A stretch of 64,000 nucleotides of DNA from Candidatus Zixiibacteriota bacterium (GTDB taxonomy: Bacteria; Zixibacteria; MSB-5A5; GN15; FEB-12), in the NCBI GenBank assembly GCA_024280215.1, contig JAJRQO010000014.1:1-64000 (forward strand), written 5' to 3'. Of the stretch, positions 44,870 to 61,072 are shown piece by piece (within the stretch, counting starts at the first letter, position 1; each line of letters starts with the position of its first letter). The position numbers and the translations under genes are program-made. Under the pieces are notes generated by a model, which was not told the DNA's origin, ran no database searches, and saw only the letters and a program-made list of their open reading frames with translations.

Positions 44870-46312
44870 TTGCATAGTTTGTATATTAAATATTGGAAAA
44901 GTTTTTGCATAAAATCGGAGTATGAAATTTTAAAAGATAATAAAAAAAGCTCAGCGTCTAAAATCGCTTTAGCAAAAAAAGGAATCGGCAAAAGACGAAT
45001 TAGCCGAAAAGATGTTGATATTGAAAAACCTCTTGTTTTTGATTTGACTGATGAGAAAAAAGAAGTCTTTAATATCTTAGAATACAGTAATGACCATGTT
45101 TTTCTGACTGGTAAAGCGGGTACTGGGAAGTCTAACTTTTTACAATATTTTCGTACTACCACACGTAAAAAAGTTGTAGTTGTTGCTTTTACAGGGGTAG
45201 CGGCAATCAATGTTCAGGGGCAGACGATTCATTCATTTTTCAAGTTTCACCCTCGCACCACGATTGACACTATCAGAAGACAATGGGGTGAAGATGCCAA
45301 AATGTACAAACGGATTGACACGATTATTATCGACGAGATTTCGATGGTGCGTGCTGATTTGCTTGATTTTATCGACAAATTTATGCGTATCAATGGCAAC
45401 GATTCAAGTAAACCGTTTGGGGGAGTGCAGGTTTTTGCGATTGGTGATCTGTTTCAGCTTCCGCCGATTGTACAGCGAGATGAGGAAGAGTATTTTTCAA
45501 CCGTCTATAAAAGCCAATACTTTTTTGATTCGCATGTATATCAGGAGGCTAACTTTATAAAAAAAGAACTGACCGAGATGTATCGTCAGGACAAAGATGA
45601 ACAGGGTGAATTTATTAAAGCGTTGGACAATTTGCGAGTCTGTTCATTTGATGATGCCGATATTGACTTAATCAACCATCGCTACGATTCTATCTATGAA
45701 AAACCATCGGACGAATTTGTTATTTCACTTGTACCGACCAATAAAGTCGCTGACTATATCAACAATATTGAACTGTCAAAGTTGTCACCAGAACCACGTA
45801 CCTACACAGGGGAAATCACCGATGACTTCAAAGCAAAAGAACTTCCAACCGCTATGAATCTTGAATTAAAAGAGGGAGCCCAAGTGATGCTCCTGCATAA
45901 CGACCCTCGTCAAAGATGGGTCAATGGTGATATTGTGAAAATCGTCAAAACGGAAAAAGAATATGTCAGGGTTCTCTTCGATGATGGTTCTTTTGATGAC
46001 ATCGTAAGTAATAAATGGGAATCGATAAAATTTGTTTTAGATGAAGAGACCGATAAGATCAATCCTGTAGTAGCGGGGACGTTTACCCAGCTTCCGATAA
46101 AGCTGGCGTGGGCGGTGACTATTCACAAAGCACAGGGGAAGACCTTTGAGAAAGTGCATATAGAATTTGGACGGGGGACATTTGCTCCAGGGCAGGCGTA
46201 TGTTGCCCTGAGTCGCTGTCGGTCGCTTGAGGGGATGACCTTGACATCGCCGCTTCAAAAACGGTATGTCTTTACCGACAAGAAGATTAAAGATTTTATG
46301 GAGATTGCATAA
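44870..46312 (+). CDS. PIF1-like 5'-3' DNA helicase
   Basis: A frame of up to 480 residues encoding a PIF1/RecD-type SF1B helicase: Walker A in FLTGKAGTGKSNFLQYF (about 78-94), VVVAFTGVAAINVQGQTIHS, Walker B IIIDEISMV, FGGVQVFAIGDLFQLPP, and the C-terminal LAWAVTIHKAQGKTFEKVHI and AYVALSRCRSLEGM motifs. PIF1 enzymes unwind DNA, including G-quadruplexes and stalled forks. The first about 55 residues before VFDLTDEKKEVFNIL are low in family features and no ATG with a ribosome site exists, so TTG 44870 is only a limit. Its last about 35 codons are duplicated in diverged form at 47835-47945. Confidence 0.85.
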   Translation: MHSLYIKYWKSFCIKSEYEILKDNKKSSASKIALAKKGIGKRRISRKDVDIEKPLVFDLTDEKKEVFNILEYSNDHVFLTGKAGTGKSNFLQYFRTTTRKKVVVVAFTGVAAINVQGQTIHSFFKFHPRTTIDTIRRQWGEDAKMYKRIDTIIIDEISMVRADLLDFIDKFMRINGNDSSKPFGGVQVFAIGDLFQLPPIVQRDEEEYFSTVYKSQYFFDSHVYQEANFIKKELTEMYRQDKDEQGEFIKALDNLRVCSFDDADIDLINHRYDSIYEKPSDEFVISLVPTNKVADYINNIELSKLSPEPRTYTGEITDDFKAKELPTAMNLELKEGAQVMLLHNDPRQRWVNGDIVKIVKTEKEYVRVLFDDGSFDDIVSNKWESIKFVLDEETDKINPVVAGTFTQLPIKLAWAVTIHKAQGKTFEKVHIEFGRGTFAPGQAYVALSRCRSLEGMTLTSPLQKRYVFTDKKIKDFMEIA

Positions 46313-46952
46313 CAAGAAATATCTTCGTAGTTGCTATCAATAATAGTAGGTCGAAACCCCTGTGGTTCCGACAGGGAAATCACTATCTACAAAGTAAAGT
46401 AGGGAAGAACCCTTTAGCGGTTCTGCCAAAACAATATTTTTCTGTTGTGTCTGGTGCTTTCCGACGAAATCGGATACGCCTGACACTTGGTAACTCTGTC
46501 AGTTCACAATTCACATTCCGTGAATCAGGAACTGACAGAACGAGAAACAGTTTATTCTTGACAGATGTGCTAAGGTAATGCATTATTAGATATAAGTTAT
46601 ATAGTATATACTATATAAATGTATAATGTGATTTGACTATTTTAATAGAATATTACTAAATAAAAGTAGTAATAAAACTTTATCTTCAATTATGATGAGT
46701 TTATACATTACTTTAATATCTTTTTATATCATCCCCTCACTAAAAAGATAATATTAACAGAAAAAATAACCGTTTTTCTTTAAGATGAATTAAAGAGAAC
46801 ACAAAAAAAGTGTGTTTCGTATGTGGGAAAGAGCAACTTGACACCTGTCTGTTGTGTTAGTGGATTGCTTGACGGCTCCCTAAACTCATTAAAGATAACC
46901 GGAACTAGTAAGTAATATTTAGGTTAAAATAGTATTATATGGAGGTAATAAC
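46313..46952. repeat. Palindrome cluster and gap between the PIF1 and TonB-like genes
   Basis: 46347-46375 has TAGGTCGAAACC and a CCCTG/CAGGG hairpin. 46447-46486 has GTGTCtGG ... CGcCTGACAC arms with an inner TCCGACGAAATCGGA. 46496-46538 is a long CTGTCAGTTC / GAACTGACAG palindrome with inner ATTCAC/GTGAAT arms. They are nested palindromes like the REP elements elsewhere. 46540-46952 is very AT-rich without a recognised feature, apart from GGAGGT before the TonB-like gene. Confidence 0.65.
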
Positions 46953-47831
46953 ATGTCTTCCGAAGTATCTAAAAAATATCAAATACACCCTGGATGGGAA
47001 TTAAAACGTAGTTGCCCAAAAAATATGGGTATAAGCGGAGTGATTGTTAATGGAACTTTTTTACTTATTGTTTTTCTTTTTGTAATGTTACAGAATAAAG
47101 AAAGTGATAAAGTTAGTATCCAATCTGATGTAGTAAGTGTCTCTGACATTAAAGAAGCTGGTGGCAATGGAATACCTCCAGCAGAAAAACCTGTAGGTAA
47201 GAGTTCTAAGGGTTCTTTGGCAATGTTGTTACCAGATGATTTTCCAAGCGGTTTTATGGCTAAGATTAAAATCATAAGAGAATATTCACGCCCAACAATG
47301 CTAATTTCAATACTGACTCCAAAAAATGTATATGAGCCAATCTCTCTTAACTCTTTATTTTCAGAAGTGGTTCCTGATCCTTTTGAAGAGGTAAGTAATA
47401 CATTTGCTTATGGTACAGGTGAAAATTATGGTCAAGGTGATGATTATGGTCTACCACCACAAGAACCGTATATGCCAAATATGTCATTTTCACCTTTAAT
47501 GACTCGCCAAAAAGGTTTGGTTATGCTATTTCCTGTCAAATTTCCATGGTATACTTCTCATGATGTTATAGGCTACGTCGAGGTTATTATTAACATAGAT
47601 GAAAAAGGTCTAATTGAATGGGAAATTATAAAAGAAGAACCTAAGGGCAAAGGATTCGGAATCGCAGTTGAGGAAGCTATAAAAAGAAGTAAATTTAATC
47701 CTCCGCTTAATGAATATGGTGAACCAACTTCTATCAAAGTTGGACTACAATGTACGGTATGCTATGGATGCCCACCTTCAACTAATTCTACGTATGGAAA
47801 AATGGACGTGTTTCAAATAACACAAAACTAA
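46953..47831 (+). CDS. TonB C-terminal-like protein with one membrane anchor
   Basis: A 292-residue protein: cytoplasmic N-terminus, one membrane helix (about 28-46), a low-complexity linker, and a C-terminal domain (about 205-275) resembling TonB_C: GYVEVIINIDEKGLIEWEII, GKGFGIAVEEAIKRSKFNPP, GEPTSIKVGLQ. TonB-type domains transmit energy to outer-membrane receptors, which supports a diderm cell. No ExbB/ExbD or receptor gene is near, and the tail after the domain has an unusual CTVCYGCPP. GGAGGT gives a strong start. The gene stops exactly where homology to the PIF1 3' end resumes, so it seems carried on an inserted segment. Confidence 0.7.
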   Translation: MSSEVSKKYQIHPGWELKRSCPKNMGISGVIVNGTFLLIVFLFVMLQNKESDKVSIQSDVVSVSDIKEAGGNGIPPAEKPVGKSSKGSLAMLLPDDFPSGFMAKIKIIREYSRPTMLISILTPKNVYEPISLNSLFSEVVPDPFEEVSNTFAYGTGENYGQGDDYGLPPQEPYMPNMSFSPLMTRQKGLVMLFPVKFPWYTSHDVIGYVEVIINIDEKGLIEWEIIKEEPKGKGFGIAVEEAIKRSKFNPPLNEYGEPTSIKVGLQCTVCYGCPPSTNSTYGKMDVFQITQN

Positions 47832-47834
47832 AAT

Positions 47835-47945
47835 ATCGCCTTTTCTCGTTGCCAGTCGCTTGAGGGGATGACCTTGACATCTCCACTTCAAAAACGATAT
47901 GTCTTTACCGACAAAAAAATCAAAGAGTTTATGGGAATTGCGTAG
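47835..47945 (+). pseudogene. Relic: diverged duplicate of the PIF1 helicase 3' end
   Basis: The last about 35 codons of a PIF1-like gene, in frame to a TAG, beginning within a few bases of the TonB-like stop. Against 46215-46312 the last 99 bases differ at about 14 positions, but only three change an amino acid (R to Q, D to E, E to G). The relic therefore descends from a paralogue or foreign allele that evolved under purifying selection before being truncated. It ends 7 bp from the 3' end of tRNA-Arg. Confidence 0.85.
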
Positions 47946-47951
47946 AAAAAA

Positions 47952-48025
47952 TACCCCAGACAGGACTCGAACCTGTTACCCTCTGCTTAGAAGGCAGATG
48001 CTCTATCCAGATGAGCTACCGGGGC
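47952..48025 (-). tRNA. tRNA-Arg (anticodon TCT)
   Basis: A complete 74-nt cloverleaf on the minus strand. Acceptor GCCCCGG/CTGGGGT (one G-U end pair and one internal G-U), D stem GCTC/GAGC, anticodon stem TCTGC/GCAGA with loop CTTCTAA giving TCT (reads AGA), T stem ACAGG/CCTGT with TTCGAGT loop, discriminator A. No encoded CCA. It marks the left edge of the defence island and would be a natural integration landmark. Confidence 0.94.
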
Positions 48026-48442
48026 AAATTATGTTGTCAGACAACGACTTAAGGTAGTGCAATTACCGTATATTCGTAGAAAATCAGAGGCTCTATTTCT
48101 GTCCGTATTTGGGCTGATTTTTGCAAAGGGCATCTGACTACTACATTCTTCATGGGGGCAAGTGTACTCATTTAAGGCACTTAAATCAACTAAAAATTAC
48201 TTATTTTCATAACTTCTTGACGTATATAGATAAGCAAGGACATGATTGTTGTTAGTTCTGTTTATCTCTATTACTATACAATTGAAAGTAAAATAAGAAT
48301 AATTATATTTTACTCTTAGCTATTAAAGTAAAATAAGGACTATAATTTGTTTTCTAATATGGACAATAACATAGTTGTAAATAAAAATCCTACTTGACAA
48401 CAGCTATTTATTTGTTGTATCATTGTTGTATGAAAGACAATA
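48026..48442. other. Intergenic region between tRNA-Arg and the defence operon
   Basis: No gene is seen. The left half includes a TTGTCAGACAA-like palindrome at about 48034-48045. 48347-48369 repeats TTGTTTTCTAATAT plus GGACAATAA from the 44.5-kb leader. The right end holds the promoter of the AbiE operon. Confidence 0.5.
48394..48431 (+). promoter_or_regulatory. Promoter and direct-repeat operator of the AbiE operon
   Basis: TTGACA (48394-48399), an 18-bp spacer and TATCAT (48418-48423). TTGTTGTAT occurs twice, at 48412-48420 and 48423-48431, 11 bp apart and overlapping the -10 box. AbiEi antitoxins repress their own promoters by binding repeats, so this is a plausible AbiEi operator. Confidence 0.65.
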
Positions 48443-49267
48443 ATGATTAACCAAAATAAAATGACTGGATTAGGGGCAAAAGAAGCTGAACTGATTGCTA
48501 CGGTAGGGAGCAAGGGTCTTAAGGTATTTACTGTTTCTGATGTTGCAGGATTATTAAACATTACTAATATATCAGCCTCACAGATAATACATCGTTTGGT
48601 TGAAAAACGTAAATTACAACGTATTGAGAAAGCTAAGTATCTACTGATTCCACCTGAAGCTTGGAAAGCAGGGGAATATACTGAAGAAGGTATTATTATA
48701 GCTTCTCAGTTATTATCACCTTATTACCTCAGCTATTGGACTGCTCTTTCTTTTTACGGATGGACTGAACAGCCATCAAGAACAATCTTTGTAGCAACTC
48801 AAAAGAGGAAACTTCCTATTGAAATACAAGGAATTCAAATAAAGTTTATTCAACTGAAAAAAGAAAAGTTTTTTGGCTATGAGCAACACTGGGTCGGAAA
48901 TCAGAAAATCTTAGTAGCTGACCAAGAGAAAACAATAATAGATTGTTTAGACCAACCACGTTATTGCGGAGAGATTGTTGAAGTTGCCAAAGGCTTATGG
49001 AACGGAAGAAAAGATTTAGATCAAAATAAATTACTTGAATATGCTCTGAAAATGAAAAACGGAGCAATTGTCAAACGTCTTGGCTATCTTCTTGATATTC
49101 TGGAAATCAGTAAGCCTAAAATCAGAAAAGAACTTCTGAAGAATATAACTCCGAATCTTGCTGTATTAGACCCAAGTAATAAAGGGGCGACTGGCAAAGA
49201 AAACAAAGAGTGGAATCTAAAAGTAAATGTTGATTCACATAATTTAATTGAGTGGAGAACGCACTAA
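48443..49267 (+). CDS. AbiEi antitoxin-like regulator (type IV toxin-antitoxin)
   Basis: A 274-residue protein. Residues about 10-65 form a winged helix (VFTVSDVAGLLNITNISASQ then IIHRLVEKRKLQRIEKAKY), as in the AbiEi_4 domain. The rest matches the AbiEi C-terminal antitoxin domain: SYWTALSFYGWTEQPSRTIF, VADQEKTIIDCLDQPRYCG, and AIVKRLGYLLDILEI. AbiEi represses the operon and neutralises AbiEii without direct contact. The ribosome site at ATG 48443 is poor. AbiEii starts 3 bp after the stop. This is the first gene of the large defence operon. Confidence 0.9.
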   Translation: MINQNKMTGLGAKEAELIATVGSKGLKVFTVSDVAGLLNITNISASQIIHRLVEKRKLQRIEKAKYLLIPPEAWKAGEYTEEGIIIASQLLSPYYLSYWTALSFYGWTEQPSRTIFVATQKRKLPIEIQGIQIKFIQLKKEKFFGYEQHWVGNQKILVADQEKTIIDCLDQPRYCGEIVEVAKGLWNGRKDLDQNKLLEYALKMKNGAIVKRLGYLLDILEISKPKIRKELLKNITPNLAVLDPSNKGATGKENKEWNLKVNVDSHNLIEWRTH

Positions 49268-49270
49268 TCT

Positions 49271-50104
49271 ATGATAGATGCAACTGAAATCCGTACCTTA
49301 GCGGCTCAAGCAAAAATTGACCCGGGAATAATAGAAAAAGATTACGTCTTGTCAAAAGTGCTGATGGCTCTGGCTCAAGTTGAACTGTTTAATCAAAGTC
49401 TTTTATTTAAAGGTGGCACTGTACTTAAAAAATTCTATTACCCTGAATGGAGATTTTCCGAAGACCTTGATTTTACTGCAAAGGCAAAGCTTACCCCTAA
49501 ACAAGTAAAATCTATTTTTCAAGAAACAGTTGAAAAGGTTGGTAAACTGTTCGGGCTAACTATGAGGATTTTGGAATATTCGCAATATCCAAAAACAGGA
49601 GATGAGTTACTTTCTGTCCAATTCAAACTTGGGTATGATGGTCCGCTTAGAAAATCAAGCGGACAAAAAAACAACGTTCGGGTTGATATTGCTTTTGAAG
49701 AAAGACTTATTTCCGAGCCTGTAAAAAGAAAAATACATTCTGGATATTCTGACGATATAGAATCTGAAATGACGGTTTACTCATTAGAAGAAGTTCTGTC
49801 AGAGAAACTTCGATCTATTTTACAAAGAGGTAAAAGTCGGGATTACTATGATGTATGGATTTTATTGAAAAAATATAAAGACGACTTTTCAAATGAGAGA
49901 TTATGGGAGATACTTAAAGGGAAATGTGAGTTTAAAAATATCCCAACGCCCAAGACAGAAGATTTTTTTAATAAAGAACGCACTGAAGAAGCAGGGCGAT
50001 ACTGGGAACGGGGACTTGCTCATCAGCTCAATGATTTACCTGACTTTGAAATAGTTCTTGAAGAGTTAAAGAATTTACTTAATAAGAATATAATTGAAAA
50101 ATAA
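49271..50104 (+). CDS. AbiEii nucleotidyltransferase toxin
   Basis: A 277-residue DNA polymerase-beta-like nucleotidyltransferase: FKGGTVLKKFY (GGT at 48-50) and RFSEDLDF (S63, D65, D67), then SLEEVLSEKLRSILQRGKSR and DYYDVW near 171-196. All AbiEii motifs are kept, so the toxin is probably active; related toxins block growth by adding nucleotides to tRNA. AbiE systems stop phage by growth arrest. Here the pair is not free-standing: the helicase gene begins 8 bp downstream in the same direction, so toxin and nuclease-type genes should share a transcript. Confidence 0.92.
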   Translation: MIDATEIRTLAAQAKIDPGIIEKDYVLSKVLMALAQVELFNQSLLFKGGTVLKKFYYPEWRFSEDLDFTAKAKLTPKQVKSIFQETVEKVGKLFGLTMRILEYSQYPKTGDELLSVQFKLGYDGPLRKSSGQKNNVRVDIAFEERLISEPVKRKIHSGYSDDIESEMTVYSLEEVLSEKLRSILQRGKSRDYYDVWILLKKYKDDFSNERLWEILKGKCEFKNIPTPKTEDFFNKERTEEAGRYWERGLAHQLNDLPDFEIVLEELKNLLNKNIIEK

Positions 50105-50112
50105 TAAGAGAT

Positions 50113-53100
50113 ATGAAAACAGACTTAACTTTTATAACAAACGAAAAAGATAGGCGATTGCTAGATCGCTTTAATGTACTGATTAAAGATACAAAGTTTT
50201 TTGATGTGCTTGTAGGTTATTTTTATACAAGTGGTTTCTATTCCATTTATAAGTCTCTTGAAAATACTGAAAAAATCCGTATTCTTATTGGTATTTCAAC
50301 AAGTAAGCAAACATTAGATTTGATCAATCAGTCAAAGCAAGAGGTGCTTCCATTCTCTCATGCTGAGACTAAGGAAGAATTTGCTAATGCTGTAGTTGCT
50401 GAACTTGGCAATTCAGATGACAAGAAAGAAATTGAAGAAGGTGTTCATAAATTCCTTGAATGGCTTCGTTCTGGCAAATTAGAGATACGTGCATATCCAT
50501 CTCAAAATATCCATGCCAAACTATACATTATGACTTTTGCTGAAGATGATCGTGATGTAGGTAGAGTAATTACAGGTTCTAGTAATTTCACTCAATCAGG
50601 ATTGTCTGACAACTTAGAGTTTAATGTCGAACTCAAAGATTCAAATGATTACGATTTCGCAAAAGATAAATTTGAACAGCTATGGTTAGATTCTGTTGAT
50701 GTTAAAGATAAGTATATTGATACTATTCAAGAAAGAACTTGGCTCAATGACACTGTCACTCCTTATCAACTATATCTTAAATTTCTTTATGAATACTTTA
50801 AAGATGAAATTTCTCAAACAGGTGGAGTCATATTTGATTATGAGCCGATTGACTTTAAGCGTCTCGAATATCAAGAACAGGCTGTTCTAAATGCTAAAAA
50901 AATTCTTGATGAATATGGCGGAGCCTTCATATCTGATGTTGTTGGTTTAGGGAAAACATATATGGCGGCTATGCTTGCCAGTCAACTTGATGGTAGGACT
51001 TTGGTTATTGCACCACCAGTATTATTGGATAAACAAAACCCAGGGTCATGGCCAAACGTGTTTTCTGATTTTCGGGTCAGCTCAGATTTTGAATCTTTGG
51101 GAAAGCTTGATTCTCTCATAAAACGAGGAGTAGAAAAATATAAAAATATTATCATTGATGAAGCTCATCGTTTTAGAACCGAAACAAACATCACCTATGA
51201 AAAGCTTGCTCAAATTTGTCGAGGAAAACGAGTTGTTTTAGTAACAGCAACCCCATTCAATAATTCACCGAAGGATATACTTGCACAGATTAAGCTATTT
51301 CAAAAATCTAGAAAGAGTACTATTCCTGGTACACCTGACCTTGAACGATTCTTTTCTAAACTAGAGAGTAAGCTTAAGGGACTCGATAGACAAAAAGATC
51401 AAACTGAATATATTCAAGCGGTCAAAGAAAACGCTCGTGAGATACGAGATAAAGTATTGAAATATTTGATGGTGCGTCGAACGAGACAGGAGATTGAAAA
51501 ATATTTTCCTGATGATTTAAAGAAACAAGGTCTTAAGTTTCCTGAAGTTATTGATCCGTCACCAATCTATTACGAATTGAGTGACGAAGAGGATAAAATA
51601 TTTAGTGAAACAATTACATTACTTGCCCAGAAGTTCAAATATGCTCGTTATACAGCAATGTTGTATTACGTGGGAGAAGTAACACAACCTGAACAACTTG
51701 CCAATCGTAATATGGGCAGGTTTATGAAAATTCTTATAGTAAAACGTCTTGAAAGTAGTTTTTTTGCTTTTCGTAATACAATTGATAGATTCATCTCATC
51801 ATATGAGATGTTTATTGAGCAATTTGATAAAGGGGCAGTTTACGTAAGTAAAAAATATTCAAACAAGATATTTGAATTATTGGAAAATGATGATGAAAAT
51901 AGAATTCTGAAACTTATTGAAGAAGATAAAGCACAAAAGTATAAGGCCTCTGATTTTGATAAAAAATTCAAAAAAGATTTAGAACATGATTTATCAATAT
52001 TGAAACGTATTCGGGATTTATGGTTAACAATCAACCGTGACCCTAAACTTCTTAAATTTATTGAAGTATTATCTTCTCAAAAAGTTCTTAAAGACAATAA
52101 GCTTCTAGTTTTTACAGAATCAAAAGAAACAGCAGACTATTTGACCAAACATTTGAATAACAAGTTTAAGGATCAAATCTTGTCATTTACTGGACAATCA
52201 AGTGCCAATACTCGTGAAAAAGTTATTGAGAACTTTGATGCCAGAGCTAGATATCCAAAAGATGATTACAGAATATTAATAGCTACTGAAGTCCTATCAG
52301 AAGGTGTAAATCTTCATAGTGCAAATGTAGTAATTAATTATGATATTCCTTGGAATCCAACACGACTAATGCAAAGAGTGGGACGTATCAATCGGGTAGA
52401 TACTGCTTTTGACAAAATTTATACATTTAATTTTTTTCCTACAAAGCGATCAAATGATGAAATTAAACTAAAGGAATCAGCAGAAGCAAAAATTCACGCT
52501 TTTATCTCATTACTTGGAGCAGATGCGAGATTACTCACTGAAGGGGAGCCGATAGAGCAACATGAAATGTTTGATAGATTGATATCAAAGAAGACAATCA
52601 CAGGTGAGGATGGAGAAGAGGAAAGTAGTCTTAAATATCTTCACGTAATTAGAAATATTAGGGATAATGATCCTGATTTATTTGAGCAAATTAAAAGGCT
52701 TCCAAGAAAAGCACGAACAGCACGTAAAGAAAAAGGAAAAGGCAATAGTCTTATAACTTACTTTATTAAAGGGAAATTACAAAAATTCTATATGAGTGGT
52801 GAGGGAGAGTCTGTTGAAATAGATTTTTTAGAAACTGCTAAAACACTTGAAACTAAAAGTTCTACTAAACGAGAAAAACTCGGTGCTGACTTTTACAAAC
52901 TTCTAGAAAAGAACAAGGAAGCATTTGTTTTTGCAACTACTGATGATGTACCTGAGGTGAAACTAAAAGGTGGAAGGGATACAGCTACACAGCTTCTCAA
53001 AATCCTCAGAGCCATACTTGATTTTCGACAATTCACAGAAGAACAGGAACAGTTTTTCAAAAAAGTAATGAAGCAATTAGAAGAAGGTGGTTTACCTCGT

Positions 53101-53289
53101 CAGACTACAAAAACAGCATTAAAAGAAATGAATAGTGTGATGAAAAATGATTTTAAACCGCTTAAAATGTTAGCTGTACTTCAGAAGAACATACCAGTAG
53201 AACTACTTGAGGGTCATCTTGCGGAATCATCCGCTAAGACAGCGGGTCCGAGGGAAGTTATTTTATCAGAATATTTAATTGGGGATTAA
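50113..53289 (+). CDS. PLD-family nuclease fused to an SNF2-type SF2 helicase
   Basis: A 1058-residue protein. Residues about 15-180 are a phospholipase-D-type nuclease half with H134-x-K136 (NIHAKLYIM), GSSNFTQSG (156-163) and a distal glutamate (E169). From about 250 comes an SF2 helicase: Walker A DVVGLGKT (275-282), DEAH 349-352, TATPFNN (378-384), and a C-terminal RecA domain with LVFTESKETADYL, LSEGVNLHSANVVINYDIPW and QRVGRINRVD (about 665-770). A long C-terminal region (about 800-1058) has no clear domain. Such proteins pair with DNA methyltransferases in several anti-phage systems. The stop is 1 bp before the methyltransferase start. Likely role: translocation on and cleavage of unmodified DNA. 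Confidence 0.85.
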   Translation: MKTDLTFITNEKDRRLLDRFNVLIKDTKFFDVLVGYFYTSGFYSIYKSLENTEKIRILIGISTSKQTLDLINQSKQEVLPFSHAETKEEFANAVVAELGNSDDKKEIEEGVHKFLEWLRSGKLEIRAYPSQNIHAKLYIMTFAEDDRDVGRVITGSSNFTQSGLSDNLEFNVELKDSNDYDFAKDKFEQLWLDSVDVKDKYIDTIQERTWLNDTVTPYQLYLKFLYEYFKDEISQTGGVIFDYEPIDFKRLEYQEQAVLNAKKILDEYGGAFISDVVGLGKTYMAAMLASQLDGRTLVIAPPVLLDKQNPGSWPNVFSDFRVSSDFESLGKLDSLIKRGVEKYKNIIIDEAHRFRTETNITYEKLAQICRGKRVVLVTATPFNNSPKDILAQIKLFQKSRKSTIPGTPDLERFFSKLESKLKGLDRQKDQTEYIQAVKENAREIRDKVLKYLMVRRTRQEIEKYFPDDLKKQGLKFPEVIDPSPIYYELSDEEDKIFSETITLLAQKFKYARYTAMLYYVGEVTQPEQLANRNMGRFMKILIVKRLESSFFAFRNTIDRFISSYEMFIEQFDKGAVYVSKKYSNKIFELLENDDENRILKLIEEDKAQKYKASDFDKKFKKDLEHDLSILKRIRDLWLTINRDPKLLKFIEVLSSQKVLKDNKLLVFTESKETADYLTKHLNNKFKDQILSFTGQSSANTREKVIENFDARARYPKDDYRILIATEVLSEGVNLHSANVVINYDIPWNPTRLMQRVGRINRVDTAFDKIYTFNFFPTKRSNDEIKLKESAEAKIHAFISLLGADARLLTEGEPIEQHEMFDRLISKKTITGEDGEEESSLKYLHVIRNIRDNDPDLFEQIKRLPRKARTARKEKGKGNSLITYFIKGKLQKFYMSGEGESVEIDFLETAKTLETKSSTKREKLGADFYKLLEKNKEAFVFATTDDVPEVKLKGGRDTATQLLKILRAILDFRQFTEEQEQFFKKVMKQLEEGGLPRQTTKTALKEMNSVMKNDFKPLKMLAVLQKNIPVELLEGHLAESSAKTAGPREVILSEYLIGD

Positions 53290-53290
53290 T

Positions 53291-56200
53291 ATGCAGAAAG
53301 AAGCCGCCAAAAAACTCATACGTGATACTTTAGAAAAGCCTTTTAATAAAGAACAATTTTCTGTTTTTATTAAAAATCTATTAAATCACTTAGAATCCGC
53401 TCCTTTCCCTCGACCTAGAACAGGACAGATGATTTTTGCTGACTTTAGAAGTCATATAAGTTCTCTAGATCGTGTTGGTAAGTACACTGATAGTGAAGGT
53501 CGTAAGTTAGATGTTTTGATTGTTAAGTTGAGTAAAACTACTTCACTTGAGAGGGCACGTTCTAAACTTAGAAATTTTGTAGCAAAGTATTTAAAAGAAA
53601 GTCAAGGTGGTCAATATAAAGAAGCCGCTTTGGTTGCATTTGTATCTCCAAATGAAAAAGATTGGCGTTTTTCTTTTGTGAAGATGGAATATAAATTTGA
53701 CACAACAAAGCAAGGTTCACCGAAAATTAAAGAAGAGTTTACTCCTGCTAAACGGTATTCATTTTTAGTAGGTGAACATGAAAACAGTCACACTGCTCAA
53801 ACAAGTTTATTGCCGATTCTAGAGAATTCGGATAATGATCCGTCTTTATTGGACTTAGAAAATGCTTTCAGTATTGAAACTGTTACAAAAGAATTCTTTG
53901 AAAAGTATCGAGGACTATTTTTGGAAATCAAAGAATCCTTAGATAAGATTGTCCAGAAAGATAAAGCGATTAAAGCTGACTTCGAAGAGAAGGGTGTAGA
54001 TACTGTAGATTTTTCAAAGAAGCTTCTCGGGCAGATAGTCTTCTTATATTTCCTTCAGAAAAAAGGATGGTTTGGTGTTGCTCGAAACGAAGCTTGGGGA
54101 ACGGGACCAAAAAACTTTTTAAAACTTCTGTTTGAAGGCAAAATGTCGAGTTATGACAATTTCTTTAATGATATTCTTGAGCCTTTATTCTATGAGGCAC
54201 TTGCAGTTGAAAGGCAGGCTGACTATTATAGTCCGTTTAAATGCAAGGTTCCTTTTTTGAATGGTGGTCTTTTTGACCCATTGAACGATTATGATTGGGT
54301 TCATACTGACATTTTGATTCCAGATGAATTGTTCTCAAATAAAACAAAAACTAAACAGGGTGATATCGGAACTGGTATCCTTGATGTTTTTGACCGTTAT
54401 AATTTTACGGTCAAAGAAGACGAACCTCTTGAAAAAGAAGTTGCTGTTGACCCTGAAATGCTTGGTAAAGTATTTGAGAATTTGCTTGAAGTTAAAGACC
54501 GAAAATCCAAAGGTACATACTACACTCCAAGAGAAATCGTTCACTATATGTGTCAGGAAAGTTTAATCAATTATCTGACTACTGAGTTGGAAGAGCAAGT
54601 TGAGAGAGAAGATATTGAAACACTTATTAAGCATGGAGAAACTGCTCTTGAAAATGATGCTTTAGTGTCTGACAAGGGTGTAGAAAAAGGAAAGTACAAA
54701 TATAAACTTCCTAAGTCCATTCGAGAACATAATGAACTAATTGATAGAAAACTTGCTGAAATAAAAGTTTGTGACCCAGCAGTAGGTTCTGGTGCTTTTC
54801 TTGTTGGCATGATGAGTGAGATTGTTAAAACGAGGTCTGTCTTAGCTCGGCTTATCAATCCTAATGAAGAAGTAAACGTTTATGACTTTAAAAGAGATGC
54901 TATTCAGGATTCGCTTCATGGTGTTGATATCGACTTAGGTGCTGTCGAAATTGCAAAACTCCGACTGTGGCTTTCGTTAATAGTTGATGAAGAAAATTAC
55001 AAGCATATTAAGCCTTTACCTAACCTTGATTATAAGATAATGCAGGGTAATAGTCTTCTTGAGGAATATGAAGGGATTAAACTCATTGATGAACGATTTT
55101 TTGAAAAACACGAAGAAAAAGAGCAAATCCTTAAGCGACTCAAAAAACAGCAAAATAAATTATCAAGAGATTATATTGAATTTCATAAAAACAATAAGCT
55201 AACTACAGTAAAAAAGGCAGAACTCAATAAACTTCTTAAGGAAGTTGAAAAACAAATAAAAGCTTTTGATAAACCCCAAAATGATAATCAAGATGATTTT
55301 GGGTTTTATGGTGAGAGAGAAACACAATCAAAAGCTGATAAGCTATTGGAATTACATGAACGATTTTTTAGTGTCCATCATAAAAGCGAAAAAGATCGTA
55401 TTCATAAGAAAATAGATGAACTTACATGGGATTTAATTGAAACTACAATAAGAAAAAAGGGTAAAGAAAGTAAATTGGAAGATGTCAAAAAATTTCAACG
55501 AACAAATACTAGCCCATTCTTTTTGTGGAAATTAAATTTTGCTGATGTCTTTCGTGAGAAAAATGGTTTTGATATTGTGATAGCTAATCCACCATATATA
55601 TTTTCAAGGGGAAACTTGTCTGATTCAGATAAGAAAGTTTACAAAAAAAACTATTCATTAACTCAATTCAAAATAAATTTATATATATTATTTATCGAAA
55701 AATCATATAATTTAATCAGTAATAACGGCTTATTCGCTTTTATAATCCCTAACAACTGGTTAACTTTGTCAACAACTTCTGACTTACGCTATTTTATTCT
55801 AGACAAAACAAGAAATATTCGTCTAGTATTTAATTATGAATCAGTATTTGAGAATGCTAGTGTAGATACATGCCTGCTTTTCTTCGGTAAAAATGGAGAT
55901 CCTTCTCTAAGTACTTATAAATGGACAGAGGATAGTATTGTAAATATTAATAAGCAACATACAAAACATTATATCAATAATAGAAATCACATCATAAGTA
56001 ATATCAATGCCCAAGATAGCATAATTGGTCAGATTTGTGGGAAGATAAATTCTCAATCAATATTACTTTCTTCAATTGCAGAAGTTAGGAATGGTGTTCA
56101 AGCATACACTGTAGGTGAAGGTAAACCTATACAAACAAAGACAATGAAAGAAAACCGAGTATATCATTCTTTAGAAAAAAAAGGTGAAGATTGGATCAAA

Positions 56201-56791
56201 TATCTTGATGGTGTTGATGTGAAAAGGTATAAATGTGATTGGAGTAATCAATACATTAAATATGGTAAAAATCTTTCTCGTTCTAGAAAAGCAGAATTAT
56301 TTAATGGAGATAGGCTATTAGTAAGACAGATACCAGCTAAACCACCATATTCCATTCATTGTTGTTATATAACAGAAAATGCTATCAATGATAACAATAG
56401 TATGATTATCAAAGTTACCGATAATCAATCAAATATAAAATATTTGCAATGCTTATTAAATTCACGACTTATATCATTTTGGTTTATTCATACTTTTGGG
56501 AAATTACAAAGAACAACTTTTCCTCAATTTAAAATTAAAGAATTGAGAATATTTCCTATAAAACCAATATCATTGGTAGATCAAGAAAAATTTGTTGAGT
56601 ATGTCAATAAGATGAACAACTATACAAATGAAAATAGTTATTTAAACAATTCGCAATTATCCGTAAAAATAAAATCTCTTAATTTTTTAATTGATCAATT
56701 AGTATATAAACTATATGACCTAACTCCAGAAGAGATTGCGATAGTTGAAAACAGTAGTAATGTTATTACAAAAAGTAATTTTAAATTTTAA
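53291..56791 (+). CDS. Large Eco57I/TaqI-like N6-adenine DNA methyltransferase
   Basis: A 1166-residue protein from ATG 53291 (GGGGA upstream), directly after the helicase stop. The catalytic core has motif I VCDPAVGSGAFLVGM (about 493-507) and motif IV NPPY (766-769), split by a long charged helical insert (about 600-750). GTYYTPREIVHYM just before motif I is typical of Eco57I/type IIG enzymes. The C-terminal part (about 900-1130) resembles a TaqI-like specificity domain (GKNLSRSRKAELFNGDRLLV). The N-terminal about 220 residues are not recognised; the only nuclease-like hint is KLDVLIVKL, not a proper PD-(D/E)xK. It would mark self DNA and recognise the target for the module. Confidence 0.88.
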   Translation: MQKEAAKKLIRDTLEKPFNKEQFSVFIKNLLNHLESAPFPRPRTGQMIFADFRSHISSLDRVGKYTDSEGRKLDVLIVKLSKTTSLERARSKLRNFVAKYLKESQGGQYKEAALVAFVSPNEKDWRFSFVKMEYKFDTTKQGSPKIKEEFTPAKRYSFLVGEHENSHTAQTSLLPILENSDNDPSLLDLENAFSIETVTKEFFEKYRGLFLEIKESLDKIVQKDKAIKADFEEKGVDTVDFSKKLLGQIVFLYFLQKKGWFGVARNEAWGTGPKNFLKLLFEGKMSSYDNFFNDILEPLFYEALAVERQADYYSPFKCKVPFLNGGLFDPLNDYDWVHTDILIPDELFSNKTKTKQGDIGTGILDVFDRYNFTVKEDEPLEKEVAVDPEMLGKVFENLLEVKDRKSKGTYYTPREIVHYMCQESLINYLTTELEEQVEREDIETLIKHGETALENDALVSDKGVEKGKYKYKLPKSIREHNELIDRKLAEIKVCDPAVGSGAFLVGMMSEIVKTRSVLARLINPNEEVNVYDFKRDAIQDSLHGVDIDLGAVEIAKLRLWLSLIVDEENYKHIKPLPNLDYKIMQGNSLLEEYEGIKLIDERFFEKHEEKEQILKRLKKQQNKLSRDYIEFHKNNKLTTVKKAELNKLLKEVEKQIKAFDKPQNDNQDDFGFYGERETQSKADKLLELHERFFSVHHKSEKDRIHKKIDELTWDLIETTIRKKGKESKLEDVKKFQRTNTSPFFLWKLNFADVFREKNGFDIVIANPPYIFSRGNLSDSDKKVYKKNYSLTQFKINLYILFIEKSYNLISNNGLFAFIIPNNWLTLSTTSDLRYFILDKTRNIRLVFNYESVFENASVDTCLLFFGKNGDPSLSTYKWTEDSIVNINKQHTKHYINNRNHIISNINAQDSIIGQICGKINSQSILLSSIAEVRNGVQAYTVGEGKPIQTKTMKENRVYHSLEKKGEDWIKYLDGVDVKRYKCDWSNQYIKYGKNLSRSRKAELFNGDRLLVRQIPAKPPYSIHCCYITENAINDNNSMIIKVTDNQSNIKYLQCLLNSRLISFWFIHTFGKLQRTTFPQFKIKELRIFPIKPISLVDQEKFVEYVNKMNNYTNENSYLNNSQLSVKIKSLNFLIDQLVYKLYDLTPEEIAIVENSSNVITKSNFKF

Positions 56792-56808
56792 CTAGGAGAA
56801 TTAAAAAA

Positions 56809-57009
56809 GTGGTTGTTAAAGAGATATTTTCAGCTCCGTCCCCAAAAGATGGAGCAACAAAGACTTGGGAAGCAATTTCAGAACTGGGTACAGCCAATCC
56901 AATATTATTCGAAACTACAGCACTTGAGGATAATGAAGAGTATAGACCCGAGGACGAAGGTTATGATGTTTTATTAAGCTATTATAAAAAAGCATATCCT
57001 AATTCATAA
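56809..57009 (+). CDS. 66-residue protein between the methyltransferase and OLD genes
   Basis: A short acidic protein (starts MVVKEIFSAPSPK; contains ALEDNEEYRPEDEGYDVLL) with AGGAG about 9 nt before a GTG start at 56809, so it is likely translated. It sits 17 bp after the methyltransferase and 72 bp before the OLD gene. No domain is recognised. Its acidic central stretch would suit a DNA mimic or inhibitor, but that is speculation. Confidence 0.6.
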   Translation: MVVKEIFSAPSPKDGATKTWEAISELGTANPILFETTALEDNEEYRPEDEGYDVLLSYYKKAYPNS

Positions 57010-57081
57010 TCGTACTCTATTGCGATACTATACCAAAAATGTAGTGTTACAAGGGGGATTAATTAACTAAGAAGGGAAATT

Positions 57082-58989
57082 ATGAAGATTAAACGAGCAG
57101 AGATTAAGAATTTTAGATCACTAAAAGATATTACAATTGATTTTGAACCTACGTGCAGAATATTAGTTGGTATCAACGAATCAGGTAAGTCAAATGTCTT
57201 GCGAGCATTATCGATGATAGATGCAAATGCGATGCCAACAAAGACAGATATCAGAGAACCATTACCGAATGAACAACCTATCAGTGAATCTACTATTCTC
57301 TTTGTTCTAGAAATGAATTCCAAGGAATTAAAATCGATATATAATAATTGCAAAGTAAAAATACTTTCAAAGCAAGGTGATGAAGTACTTTTAAAAAAAG
57401 GACGAAAGTATTATAACCTTTCTGAAATAATCTCTCTCAGAAATGAAGGACTTTATGAAATAGATGTTGAAAAGCAAACTAAAAATGCCAAATACTGGTC
57501 TTTGGATGACGATTACATCATATCAGGGAATTGGAAAAAACCTAATGCCAGTTGTCCTCCGGAATTAGAAGTTGTAGTTGGAAAAGACAAGAAGGCTTTA
57601 CTTAAGAATTTTGTTCTTATAAATCACGATGATTTTTCAGATATACCCGAAGAACAATTAGATGAAGTTACGCTTGAAGATATTGATAACTTAGTAAGTG
57701 AGGAAATTACAGATACAGTTGATTCTAATTTACCTGATGTCATTTTTTGGGAATATGATGAAAAGAATCTATTGCCTCCTTCGGTTGTGTTAGCTGATTT
57801 TGCGGTTAATCCCGATAGTTGTATTCCATTAAAGAATATGTTTTCGTTAGCAGGTGTAGCTGATATTCAGCAGGAGCTTAATGAAGCTCAAACAAAATCT
57901 CAGAACGCTTTAAGAAACTTATTGTCACGAGTAGCTGTTCACACAACAAACCACTTCAGGAAAGTTTGGAAGGAGTACAAAGATGTTAAGTTTAATCTTG
58001 AGCCAAATGGTGCTAACATTGATGCTTCAATTCATGAAAAGAACCGCTGGGATTTTGCTCAGAGAAGCGATGGTTTTAAGAGATTTGTAAGTTTCCTTCT
58101 TTTAATTTCTATTAAAGTACAAACGAACACTATTGGTAATACTCTTTTGTTAATAGATGAACCTGATGTTAGTTTACATCCATCAGGGGCAAGATACTTA
58201 AGAGATGAGCTAATCAAGATAGCGAAAACTAATACAGTCATATTTACAACACATTCAATATTTATGATTGATCGAGATTATATCGGTCGACATATAATTG
58301 TTAAGAAACAAAAAGAGCAAACATCTATAACAAAAGCAGATGAATCTAACTTTGTTGATGAAGAAGTAATTTATAATGCACTCGGATATAGTATCTTTGA
58401 AACTCTTAATGAAAACAATATTATCTTTGAGGGTTGGAGAGATAAAAGATTGTTTCAAGTAGCGATTAGTAATTTACCTACGAATATGAAGGAGTTTAAA
58501 AAGAAACTTCAGGGCATTGGTCTTTGTCATGCAAAAGGAGTTAAACAGATAAAATGTATTAGCCCTATGCTAGGACTTGCTAGACGCAAATGCATTATTA
58601 TTAGTGATTGTGATAAGCCTGCTCTTGAATGTCAGAAAAAATATATTGAGTCACATAGTTATGGGGAATGGTTTACTTACAAGGATGTTGATGAAGATTG
58701 TTCTTCTATCACAGGTGAAGATTTTATAAAGGATACTATTATAAAAAAGGCACTTAACAAAATTCGTAAGCAATATTCTGAGATATCTGGAGAACCAACT
58801 TTGAATCTAGCTGGTGGAAAACTCAACGGTGTTTCTATTTGGCTAAATGATTCGAGCCTGGAAAGTGAAAAATGTAAATCATTTTTAAATGAACTCAAAG
58901 GTGAAATCTTTAGTGATTTAAAAACATCACATATTGAAAATAGTTATTATGATTTCTTAAAAAAATTAGCTGAAAAAATTGAATGTTAG
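57082..58989 (+). CDS. OLD-family ATPase with TOPRIM nuclease domain
   Basis: A 635-residue OLD-type protein. The ABC/SMC-like ATPase has Walker A GINESGKS (30-37), a signature region QRSDGFKRFVSFLLL (about 330) and Walker B LLLIDEPDVSLHP (about 354-366) followed by FTTHSIFMID. The TOPRIM nuclease domain has IIFEGWRDKRLF (about 446; the glutamate) and IIISDCDKP (about 504; the DxD). OLD nucleases cut DNA with metal ions and appear in Gabija and related systems. No UvrD-like partner is present; instead it is the last gene of the AbiE/helicase/methylase operon and would be its ATPase component. AAGGG precedes ATG. Confidence 0.88.
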   Translation: MKIKRAEIKNFRSLKDITIDFEPTCRILVGINESGKSNVLRALSMIDANAMPTKTDIREPLPNEQPISESTILFVLEMNSKELKSIYNNCKVKILSKQGDEVLLKKGRKYYNLSEIISLRNEGLYEIDVEKQTKNAKYWSLDDDYIISGNWKKPNASCPPELEVVVGKDKKALLKNFVLINHDDFSDIPEEQLDEVTLEDIDNLVSEEITDTVDSNLPDVIFWEYDEKNLLPPSVVLADFAVNPDSCIPLKNMFSLAGVADIQQELNEAQTKSQNALRNLLSRVAVHTTNHFRKVWKEYKDVKFNLEPNGANIDASIHEKNRWDFAQRSDGFKRFVSFLLLISIKVQTNTIGNTLLLIDEPDVSLHPSGARYLRDELIKIAKTNTVIFTTHSIFMIDRDYIGRHIIVKKQKEQTSITKADESNFVDEEVIYNALGYSIFETLNENNIIFEGWRDKRLFQVAISNLPTNMKEFKKKLQGIGLCHAKGVKQIKCISPMLGLARRKCIIISDCDKPALECQKKYIESHSYGEWFTYKDVDEDCSSITGEDFIKDTIIKKALNKIRKQYSEISGEPTLNLAGGKLNGVSIWLNDSSLESEKCKSFLNELKGEIFSDLKTSHIENSYYDFLKKLAEKIEC

Positions 58990-59188: not shown

Positions 59189-59974
59189 ATGAAAAACAAC
59201 AAAGCAAAACAACTAATTGAAAACGCTCTCACATCATTAACTGAATCTCTTGAGAACGGTCAAAGTGATGAATTAAAAAAGTATCTCAAAACTATGAGTA
59301 TATTTCATCATTACAGTTTTAGAAACGTTATGCTTATAGCTCTTCAGAAACCAAACGCAACTCATACCTCTGGCTTTCACACTTGGAAAAAGCTTGGTCG
59401 ATTTGTCAAAAAAGGCGAGAAGGGCATTACTATTATTGCTCCGTTAGTATTCAAGAAAGAATCTGTTGAAAATAATGATAACAGTTCTAATGTTTCTGAA
59501 ATTAGCGGATTCAAAGCCGTTCACGTTTTTGACATTAGCCAAACTGACGGAGATGAACTGCCTGAATTCGCACGTGTGCAAGGTGATCCGACTCATTATC
59601 AGGAAATGCTTAATAATTTTATTTCTGCTAATAGTATTACTCTTGAGTATTCGGATTCCTTACACGCCGTTGGCTGTTCATCAGGAGGTAAAATAACTAT
59701 CCGTTCAGGTTTGACACCAGCTGAAGATTTTAGTGTGAAAGTCCATGAGTTGGCTCATGAGTTTTTACATCACACAGGAGAGAAGCTTTCTAAGACTCAG
59801 AAAGAGACAGAAGCCGAAGCAGTTGCCTATGTTGTTTGTCAGTCTATTGGTCTTGATACTAATACCGCATTTAGCGACTATATCCAACTCTACAAAGGCA
59901 AAAAAGAAACACTAATCAATTCAATTCAGAGAATCAAAGATGTTTCAGGAAAGATACTTCAAGCTCTATCATAG
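59189..59974 (+). CDS. ArdC-like protein: ssDNA-binding domain plus ImmA/IrrE-type metallopeptidase
   Basis: A 261-residue protein. The N-terminal domain (about 1-90) matches ArdC_N: YLKTMSIFHHYSFRNVMLIA then GFHTWKKLGRFVKKGEKGI. The C-terminal domain is a zincin with HELAHEFLHH (H186, E187, H190) and the third ligand glutamate in ETEAEAVAYVV (about 206-210). ArdC proteins of plasmids protect incoming DNA from restriction. Finding one inside a defence island is notable: it may protect the element itself or may act as a phage-sensing protease. It has its own leader hairpin and terminator, so it is a separate unit. Confidence 0.85.
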   Translation: MKNNKAKQLIENALTSLTESLENGQSDELKKYLKTMSIFHHYSFRNVMLIALQKPNATHTSGFHTWKKLGRFVKKGEKGITIIAPLVFKKESVENNDNSSNVSEISGFKAVHVFDISQTDGDELPEFARVQGDPTHYQEMLNNFISANSITLEYSDSLHAVGCSSGGKITIRSGLTPAEDFSVKVHELAHEFLHHTGEKLSKTQKETEAEAVAYVVCQSIGLDTNTAFSDYIQLYKGKKETLINSIQRIKDVSGKILQALS

Positions 59975-59992
59975 AGCTTGTTTTATTTTTTT

Positions 59993-60016
59993 AAACCGCC
60001 TCTTGAGGCGGTTTTT
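59993..60016 (+). terminator. Terminator after the ArdC-type gene
   Basis: AAACCGCC-TCTTGA-GGCGGTTT plus a T run, a textbook intrinsic terminator, 19 bp after the stop codon. Confidence 0.9.
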
Positions 60017-60106
60017 CACTTTGTTTAAGATGTGTAATTGCCTTATTGTGGATTTAGGTGCATATTATATGTAGATAATATAAACAGTTAAATAAGGTAT
60101 ATAAAT

Positions 60107-61072
60107 ATGACAGTAATTAAGAGAACTGAAAAAGGCATTGAATATCTTTTTGGTTTACTTAAAGAAAAGGTAAAAACTGTAACAAGAGTTGCATTATGGA
60201 AAATTCCTCATAAAAGTGATAAAGAAGATATTGCCTTAAAAATCGGTCGTTACAATAAAACTAATTTTGAACCTGAAACACTTGAAGTTTCAAATCCCAA
60301 AAGCGAACTAACTTTGGACAATGACGAGTTTCAGGAATTACTTGAATTTTTATCAAATAACTATGAACCTTTCAAACAAGGAATAAAAAAATATATTCCG
60401 CTAGACGAAAAATTTGATCAAACAAGTATAGAACACCTAAAAGCTATTTTTGACAATCCTGACAAACAACAATTATTAGATTTCATTGTTAGTAATAATA
60501 TATTACCTGAAGAGTTGATAACTGGTTTGCAATATCAATCTAGAATAAATGCTGTTAGGGAATTTGAAACCATGCTCGGACAAGATTTAGTTGAGCAAAA
60601 ATGGCAAGAGTGGTTACAACGCAATGAGTGGGTTCTTGGTAGTGAGTTTGTGAGAATACTTGATGAACGTGAAATTGATATTTCTAATATTACAGATTAT
60701 TTAATGCAGGCTTATGATGGCTTTTTAGATATTGTAGAAATTAAGAGACCTGATGGAAATTTACTGTTTTGGGCAAATGCTCAAGACCACGGAAATTATG
60801 TTCCATCTACTGATTTAATTAAAGCTGTTACGCAAGCAACAAAGTATATTTATGAAGTTGAACGTGAAGCTAATAGTGTTAAATTCCTTGAGCGTGTAGA
60901 TAATGTCAAAACAATTAAACCTCGTTGTATTCTAATTTTTGGAAGATCAAATGATTGGAATAATGAACAAAAAGAAGCATTTCGCATTCTAAATTCAAGT
61001 TATCATAATATGACAATCATGACTTATGACCATGTTTTATTAAGAGCAAAGAAAATATTAGAACTTGATTAA
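60107..61072 (+). CDS. sduA: Shedu (SduA/DUF4263) anti-phage nuclease
   Basis: A 321-residue protein. The C-terminal half is the Shedu catalytic domain: EQKWQEWLQRNEWVLGSEFV (about 163-182), then DGFLDIVEIKRPD with D208, E211 and K213 as the PD-(D/E)xK triad, and a downstream AVTQATKYIYEVE carrying the usual Q and Y. The N-terminal about 150 residues are a separate sensor or regulatory domain without a recognised family. Shedu is a one-gene system that degrades phage DNA after sensing ends or other cues. AAGG precedes the ATG. It is a separate transcription unit, isolated from the ArdC-type gene by a terminator. Confidence 0.88.
   Translation: MTVIKRTEKGIEYLFGLLKEKVKTVTRVALWKIPHKSDKEDIALKIGRYNKTNFEPETLEVSNPKSELTLDNDEFQELLEFLSNNYEPFKQGIKKYIPLDEKFDQTSIEHLKAIFDNPDKQQLLDFIVSNNILPEELITGLQYQSRINAVREFETMLGQDLVEQKWQEWLQRNEWVLGSEFVRILDEREIDISNITDYLMQAYDGFLDIVEIKRPDGNLLFWANAQDHGNYVPSTDLIKAVTQATKYIYEVEREANSVKFLERVDNVKTIKPRCILIFGRSNDWNNEQKEAFRILNSSYHNMTIMTYDHVLLRAKKILELD

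Follow-up and report, generated by a model that had tools for sequence, protein, structure and literature searches.

Do the six genes that run on one strand between positions 48443 and 58989 of a 64,000-nucleotide stretch of a Candidatus Zixiibacteriota bacterium genome (contig JAJRQO010000014.1 of assembly GCA_024280215.1, positions 1 to 64,000; hereafter "the window") make up a single fixed system, and what might an AbiE toxin-antitoxin pair be doing at the head of what looks like a restriction-modification (R-M) operon? Judging by the comparisons presented here, the locus is a modular mosaic assembled around a two-gene core, a helicase with a predicted PLD nuclease domain followed by a DNA methylase, and has no fixed six-gene composition; AbiE, the helicase and the methylase nevertheless form one apparent transcription unit in this genome. 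The elements of the operon are as follows (aa, amino acids; SF2, superfamily 2):

48385-48442, + strand: promoter and leader of abiEi (TTGACA-18-TATCAT at 48394-48423)
48443-49267, + strand: abiEi, antitoxin and predicted autorepressor, 274 aa (PADLOC PDLC02267, 3.1e-81; Pfam AbiEi_1 marginal only)
49271-50104, + strand: abiEii, nucleotidyltransferase toxin, 277 aa (Pfam AbiEii, 1e-36; PADLOC, 9e-77; aligned to AbiGII, 9hlo)
50113-53289, + strand: PLD (HKD) nuclease-SF2/SNF2 helicase, predicted restriction motor and nuclease, 1058 aa (PLDc_2, ResIII, SNF2, Helicase_C)
53291-56791 (TTG at 53279 possible), + strand: N6-adenine DNA methyltransferase with a C-terminal TaqI_C target-recognition domain (Eco57I, 9e-31; TaqI_C, 8e-20; N6_Mtase)
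56809-57009, + strand: 66-aa protein with a GTG start (good AGGAG Shine-Dalgarno upstream)
57082-58989, + strand: OLD-family ABC ATPase with a TOPRIM-like C-terminal nuclease, 635 aa (AAA_15, 1.7e-27; PADLOC Old/AriA, about 1e-32; PDB 6p74, OLD)

The helicase-methylase core

The open reading frame (ORF) listing places all six genes on the + strand, and their coordinates agree with the intergenic gaps of 3, 8, 1, 17 and 72 bp given in a first-pass annotation of the window, provided that the methyltransferase is taken to start at ATG 53291 (the mechanical ORF call, TTG 53279, would make it overlap the helicase by 11 bp). Profile searches with Pfam and PADLOC likewise bore out the families which that annotation had assigned (AbiEi, AbiEii, PLD-helicase, methylase and OLD-type ATPase), and its single transcription unit spanning AbiE, helicase and methylase appears to hold, as a single promoter and no terminator-like site were found ahead of the helicase. 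What did not survive was the treatment of all six genes as one conserved system: relatives retain the helicase and the methylase only, AbiE on the one hand and the small protein with the OLD gene on the other each being exchanged for other genes, a caution against giving such loci the name of a single, fixed system of many genes when the conserved unit consists of two genes and the effector cassettes are exchangeable.

Apart from the genome of the window, 26 of 288 sampled genomes had relatives of the helicase (E <= 1e-60), with identities of up to 80% within the same family and of 55-68% in genomes outside the class, and twelve further helicase loci came from GTDB contigs, including metagenome-assembled genomes of Nitrospirae/Thermodesulfovibrionia, Spirochaetes and Fibrobacteres. 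A methylase homologue lies 3' of the helicase in most of the loci whose contig continues, and a methylase scan of IMG/VR retrieved two contigs carrying the helicase and methylase side by side without AbiE; viral-contig scans with the helicase and with the OLD protein as queries gave no match. The two genes thus stay adjacent in several phyla as well as on the two viral contigs, and AbiE is nearly always absent.

Both partners keep their catalytic motifs. The helicase, which combines intact ATPase motifs with the predicted PLD nuclease domain, keeps H-x-K...GSSN in all 30 homologues, Walker A GLGK[TS] in all 30 but one (GTGKT), and the DE[AS][HQ] box. The methylases keep DPA.GS (DPAVGSGAF in the window) and NPPY, so that the S-adenosylmethionine motif, NPPY and a target-recognition domain are combined in one chain, and the window's methylase matches the PADLOC type IIG profile PDLC03596 over its whole length (852 bits). 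As an alignment of homologues shows no conserved PD-(D/E)XK lysine in the first 150 methylase residues, the PLD domain is probably the likelier nuclease; an AlphaFold model of the methylase, in which an N-terminal nuclease was sought, was too poor for use (mean pLDDT, the model's own confidence score, 48.7). Domains, intact motifs and conserved pairing together point to a minimal unit that would be an ATP-dependent R-M system, with helicase-nuclease and methylase-target recognition on two chains.

The AbiE cassette and its neighbours

The abiEi gene lies immediately 5' of abiEii with a 3-bp gap, each being matched by its family profile (AbiEi, 3e-81; AbiEii, 9e-77), and the AbiEii catalytic motif FKGGT...SEDLDF is intact, as is EKLRSI...SRDYYDVW, both aligning with AbiGII 9hlo. 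A single strong promoter-like site (TTGACA-18-TATCAT, 48394-48423), matching 11 of 12 consensus positions, lies 20 bp before abiEi, its -10 box being overlapped in this genome by a 9-bp direct repeat, TTGTTGTAT. An identical -35/-10 layout stands 5' of abiEi in six of the sampled genomes (G numbers denote these, and L numbers the contigs or loci of the comparison set): G036, G044, G031, G020, G034 and G118. This promoter type, TTGACA-17/18-TANNAT, being kept ahead of orthologous abiEi genes, is not a chance match. No terminator-like site was seen in a sequence scan between abiEii and the helicase, where a transcription end would have spoken against the joining of the two; the first strong terminator-like pair comes at 59960-60014, past an ArdC-like gene.

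Where the cassette ends and the core begins can be delimited rather closely. Homology of the AbiE-locus DNA to G036 and G044 (blastn) starts at 48385, nine bases ahead of the -35 box, and ends at 50070 in G036, near the abiEii stop (in G044, at 50015, where the contig itself stops), while homology to AbiE-free cores starts at 50112 (G032) or 50105 (G018), which puts the cassette/core junction within about 40 bp at the abiEii-helicase boundary. DNA similarity to AbiE that stands alone or is linked to HsdM thus runs out within the 3' end of abiEii. The AbiEi/AbiEii pair is, on this sequence evidence, a cassette carrying its own conserved promoter and joined directly before the restriction core.

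The joining is not confined to this genome, contrary to what the first-pass annotation had named as a finding that would speak against it: a core of PLD-helicase and methylase has AbiE next to it in at least three other lineages, G092, G281 (methylase, a 583-aa gene, AbiEi, AbiEii, PLD-helicase, in that order) and G376. The G092 helicase is 76% identical to the window's, while its AbiEii is only 31% identical and its AbiEi belongs to a different Pfam family, so that the cassette there was a separate acquisition. As AbiE is thus not unique to this genome and nothing resembling a terminator follows abiEii, the link between AbiE and the core appears to be real and recurrent, but optional.

How often, then, does AbiE precede restriction genes of any kind? 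On the AbiE side the sampling, from which G281 and G376 came, comprised 46 of 388 genomes and was centred on this genome's relatives and on draft contigs, with mechanical gene calls, so the rates are rough. A neighbour was visible for 50 other AbiE pairs, and in eight of these AbiEii is followed, as the next gene on its strand, by a PLD-helicase, HsdM, HsdR or Res gene (G092, G281, G036, G137 with a 180-bp gap, G031, G013, G187 with a weak HsdR N-terminus, and G267). In G036, whose AbiEii is 83% identical to the window's, an HsdM gene follows after 2-3 bp, and in G031 an HsdR gene overlaps AbiEii by 4 bp. Upstream of AbiE, no R-M gene was present among the larger neighbours checked (about six of fourteen); the contrast of eight downstream to none upstream (p about 0.008 under equal likelihood) is indicative only, because close upstream genes are less common on account of the AbiE promoter itself.

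Other settings of AbiE were also seen along the way. A small HNH endonuclease gene follows the pair in G083 (L085:8772-9047; AbiEii 66% identical to the window's), and in G157 (L090:930-2464) the pair lies within apparent type III CRISPR genes, with a RAMP-family gene upstream and an overlapping HD-domain gene downstream. Longer AbiEii proteins, of about 400-500 aa and extended at the C-terminus, occur in G281 (L149:13101-14537; WYL-domain-like by eye) and on L105, L092, L094, L095 and L102.

A possible backup toxin and competing readings

The reading towards which we lean, by a modest margin over doubt, is that of a mosaic R-M operon consisting of the helicase-methylase core, a promoter-bearing AbiE cassette as a second line and an exchangeable OLD cassette. 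The methylase, with its own target-recognition domain, would mark host sites, and the helicase would translocate along DNA while its PLD domain cut what is unmarked, as suggested by the domains, intact motifs and conserved pairing. The AbiE promoter would drive both the cassette and the core (the junction is visible in the sequence, the shared transcript is deduced from it), and AbiEi, going by known AbiE behaviour, would silence AbiEii and probably repress the shared promoter; a phage shutting off or disabling the operon might then leave AbiEii to block translation via tRNA, as a bacteriostatic second line. In Serratia, AbiE toxins brought about tRNA dysregulation and probable bacteriostasis (PMC7725324). 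PrrC is kept inactive by the type Ic R-M system PrrI and released once T4 Stp blocks PrrI, and for at least 16 HEPN clades a link to R-M systems is described (PMC3710099); BREX and related systems, too, carry backup effectors (PMC12839542). The PrrC-PrrI pair and the HEPN toxins in R-M operons (PMC3710099) make the backup-toxin idea a reasonable one, so that AbiE as a second line tied to the R-M core is plausible by analogy, and from the same analogy we infer that AbiEii may be released upon R-M failure.

Several observations weigh against this. AbiEii adjoins a helicase relative in only one (G092) of 25 other helicase-bearing genomes, most cores being free of AbiE; most AbiE pairs stand alone, without an R-M neighbour, and none of seven named plasmid AbiE loci has one. 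In G376, AbiE lies antisense between methylase and helicase, where co-transcription is impossible. That the PLD domain does the cutting is, moreover, itself a deduction, and a divergent nuclease could still be present in the N-terminal domain of the methylase.

Some of these same facts are what one would expect if AbiE were a selfish addiction module, stabilising the R-M operon or the whole island while blind to phage and to the state of the core: it is mostly solitary or plasmid-borne, was inserted antisense within the core in G376, and here belongs to an island that carries a serine recombinase and occupies a tRNA site vacant in congeners. A head-of-operon position with junctions of 3-8 bp or overlaps, recurring over several R-M types, nevertheless exceeds what an island-level stabiliser would need, and we regard this account as unlikely, if the most serious of the competing ones. 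Could AbiEi chiefly be a transcriptional controller of the R-M genes, akin to a C protein, with the cassette supplying a regulated promoter and toxicity being secondary? The only strong conserved promoter does lie ahead of abiEi, the helicase has just 8 bp upstream of it, and the DNA shared with AbiE-free cores sets in at the start codon of the helicase; the intact AbiEii catalytic motifs, and HEPN-MNT toxins, of another family altogether, holding the same position in other cores, make this improbable. Still less credible, and in our opinion very improbable, is the chance juxtaposition of unrelated defence genes, which tend to cluster in general and here continue directly after the operon with ArdC, Shedu and the recombinase: four lineages have AbiE beside such a core, eight of the 50 other AbiE pairs precede a same-strand ATP-dependent R-M-type gene, and the translational spacing between AbiE and core is tight.

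The recurrence of AbiE beside restriction systems suggests that a growth-stopping toxin has time and again been coupled by cells to their restriction enzymes, possibly as a backup. Going beyond this locus, AbiE might be a general guard cassette for ATP-dependent restriction systems, a promoter-bearing unit that repeatedly moves ahead of R-M genes of the type I, type III-like and PLD-helicase kinds, brings them under AbiEi control and halts growth through tRNA when a phage inhibits or silences the restriction genes; we put this forward tentatively, as a possible but doubtful extension of the second-line reading. Were it so, a widespread toxin-antitoxin family would gain a testable trigger, namely the failure or silencing of the restriction genes sharing its promoter, and the principle of toxins guarding R-M systems, as in PrrC and HEPN, would extend to nucleotidyltransferase toxins.

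Known systems, exchangeable cassettes and the island

As a kind, toxins guarding R-M systems are already known, and what would be new here is the AbiE cassette joined to a compact R-M core. The HEPN/PrrC operons (PMC3710099) share a toxin gene within an R-M operon and a proposed second defence line, whereas their toxins are HEPN RNases and here the toxin is AbiEii, a nucleotidyltransferase that has AbiEi as an antitoxin of its own. With the AbiE type IV toxin-antitoxin systems (PMC7725324) the pair shares gene order, families and motifs, yet those mostly stand alone and this one leads an R-M operon. A search of open literature, subscription papers and preprints being outside its scope, turned up no account of AbiE at the head of R-M operons, which does not amount to proof of novelty.

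Membership in Hma, DISARM, BREX-related type 2 and CxC/Pbe systems was rejected, as a defining feature of each is lacking here. The first-pass likeness to Hma (helicase HmaA, methylase HmaB and ATPase HmaC; PMC8565338) amounts to the three kinds of genes standing together: HmaB is a 5-methylcytosine methylase (PMC8565338), whereas the methylase here is of the N6-adenine Eco57I/TaqI type (Pfam, NPPY), the HmaA match covers only about 120 aa of the helicase C-terminal domain, and the present locus includes a PLD domain and a 66-aa protein. HsdS, PglZ, DUF1998, BrxL and also DUF499 were not found among the operon genes by profile search, as had been claimed for the first four. BREX-related type 2 systems (PMC12839542) share the HKD-SF2 helicase, the N6 methylase, an R-M-like logic and backup effectors around the core, but their defining DUF499 ATPase and DUF3780 have no Pfam match in the six genes, ArdC, SduA or the recombinase. 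DISARM was rejected as well, DUF1998 (DrmB) not being found and the DrmA- and DrmD-like matches being confined to the helicase domains. The CxC ABC-ATPase/PbeABCD systems (PMC10853773) share an HKD-SF2 helicase, a small protein, an ABC ATPase and sometimes a methylase, whereas the ATPase here is OLD-TOPRIM, without C-x-C or C-x2-C, the methylase is N6-adenine and not C5 or N4-cytosine, and no DndE match was obtained among the scanned genes.

The 66-aa protein and the OLD-TOPRIM ATPase are another exchangeable effector cassette. The former has no Pfam, PADLOC or NCBIfam match, and weak homologues were found in two genomes only, neither near a core. In the OLD protein, Walker A, DEP and E450/D454/D509/D511 are invariant with two relatives (in G183 and G058, both away from any core) and all TOPRIM acidic residues are present; the TOPRIM Pfam profile is below threshold in the window's protein and marginal in the G183 relative. 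Core loci elsewhere hold, in place of or besides AbiE and OLD, Schlafen-AlbA_2/GHKL, HEPN-MNT pairs, Bro-N, SIR2 and UvrD, as well as an ATPase matching PADLOC Ppl, a second PLD gene, and GIY-YIG and Ymh genes. The same plan is followed by an annotated Parabacteroides distasonis plasmid, with an RNA-binding-domain protein, an SNF2-related protein, an N-6 DNA methylase and, further on, a TIR protein. On viral contig L156 (4702-13183) the helicase-methylase pair is followed by GIY-YIG and Ymh genes, an effector swap on a mobile element.

Around the operon, the island comprises:

47951-48026, - strand: tRNA-Arg(TCT), marking the island's left border (no island at this site in congeners G003 and G002)
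59189-59974, + strand: ArdC-N domain protein, next island module (also 3' of the core in G032, 82% identity)
60107-61072, + strand: Shedu SduA defence nuclease, a separate system (SduA_C, 1.3e-26; PADLOC, 8e-144)
61142-62737, - strand: large serine recombinase, likely island mobiliser (Resolvase, Recombinase, Zn_ribbon_recom)

To the right of tRNA-Arg(TCT), congeners G003 and G002 and family members G036 and G032 have an rlmN-like block (labelled by eye from sequence) and no island. The same tRNA is also present in G092, about 8 kb upstream of the AbiE-helicase-methylase-OLD cluster of that genome. A 3-kb segment that a congener has to the right of the tRNA is found at 7.7 kb on contig C21 of this genome, a placement which fits an insertion and does not prove the contig order. 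The ArdC-like anti-restriction-type gene adjoins the Shedu gene (59189-61072), and its G032 copy is kept even where the intervening genes differ. Left of the island, a 119-bp direct repeat, 82% identical between its copies (46200-46318 and 47833-47951), represents the 3' end of an upstream helicase gene (44870-46312) copied right up to where the tRNA-Arg has its 3' end; a TonB-C-like gene (46953-47831) separates the two copies.

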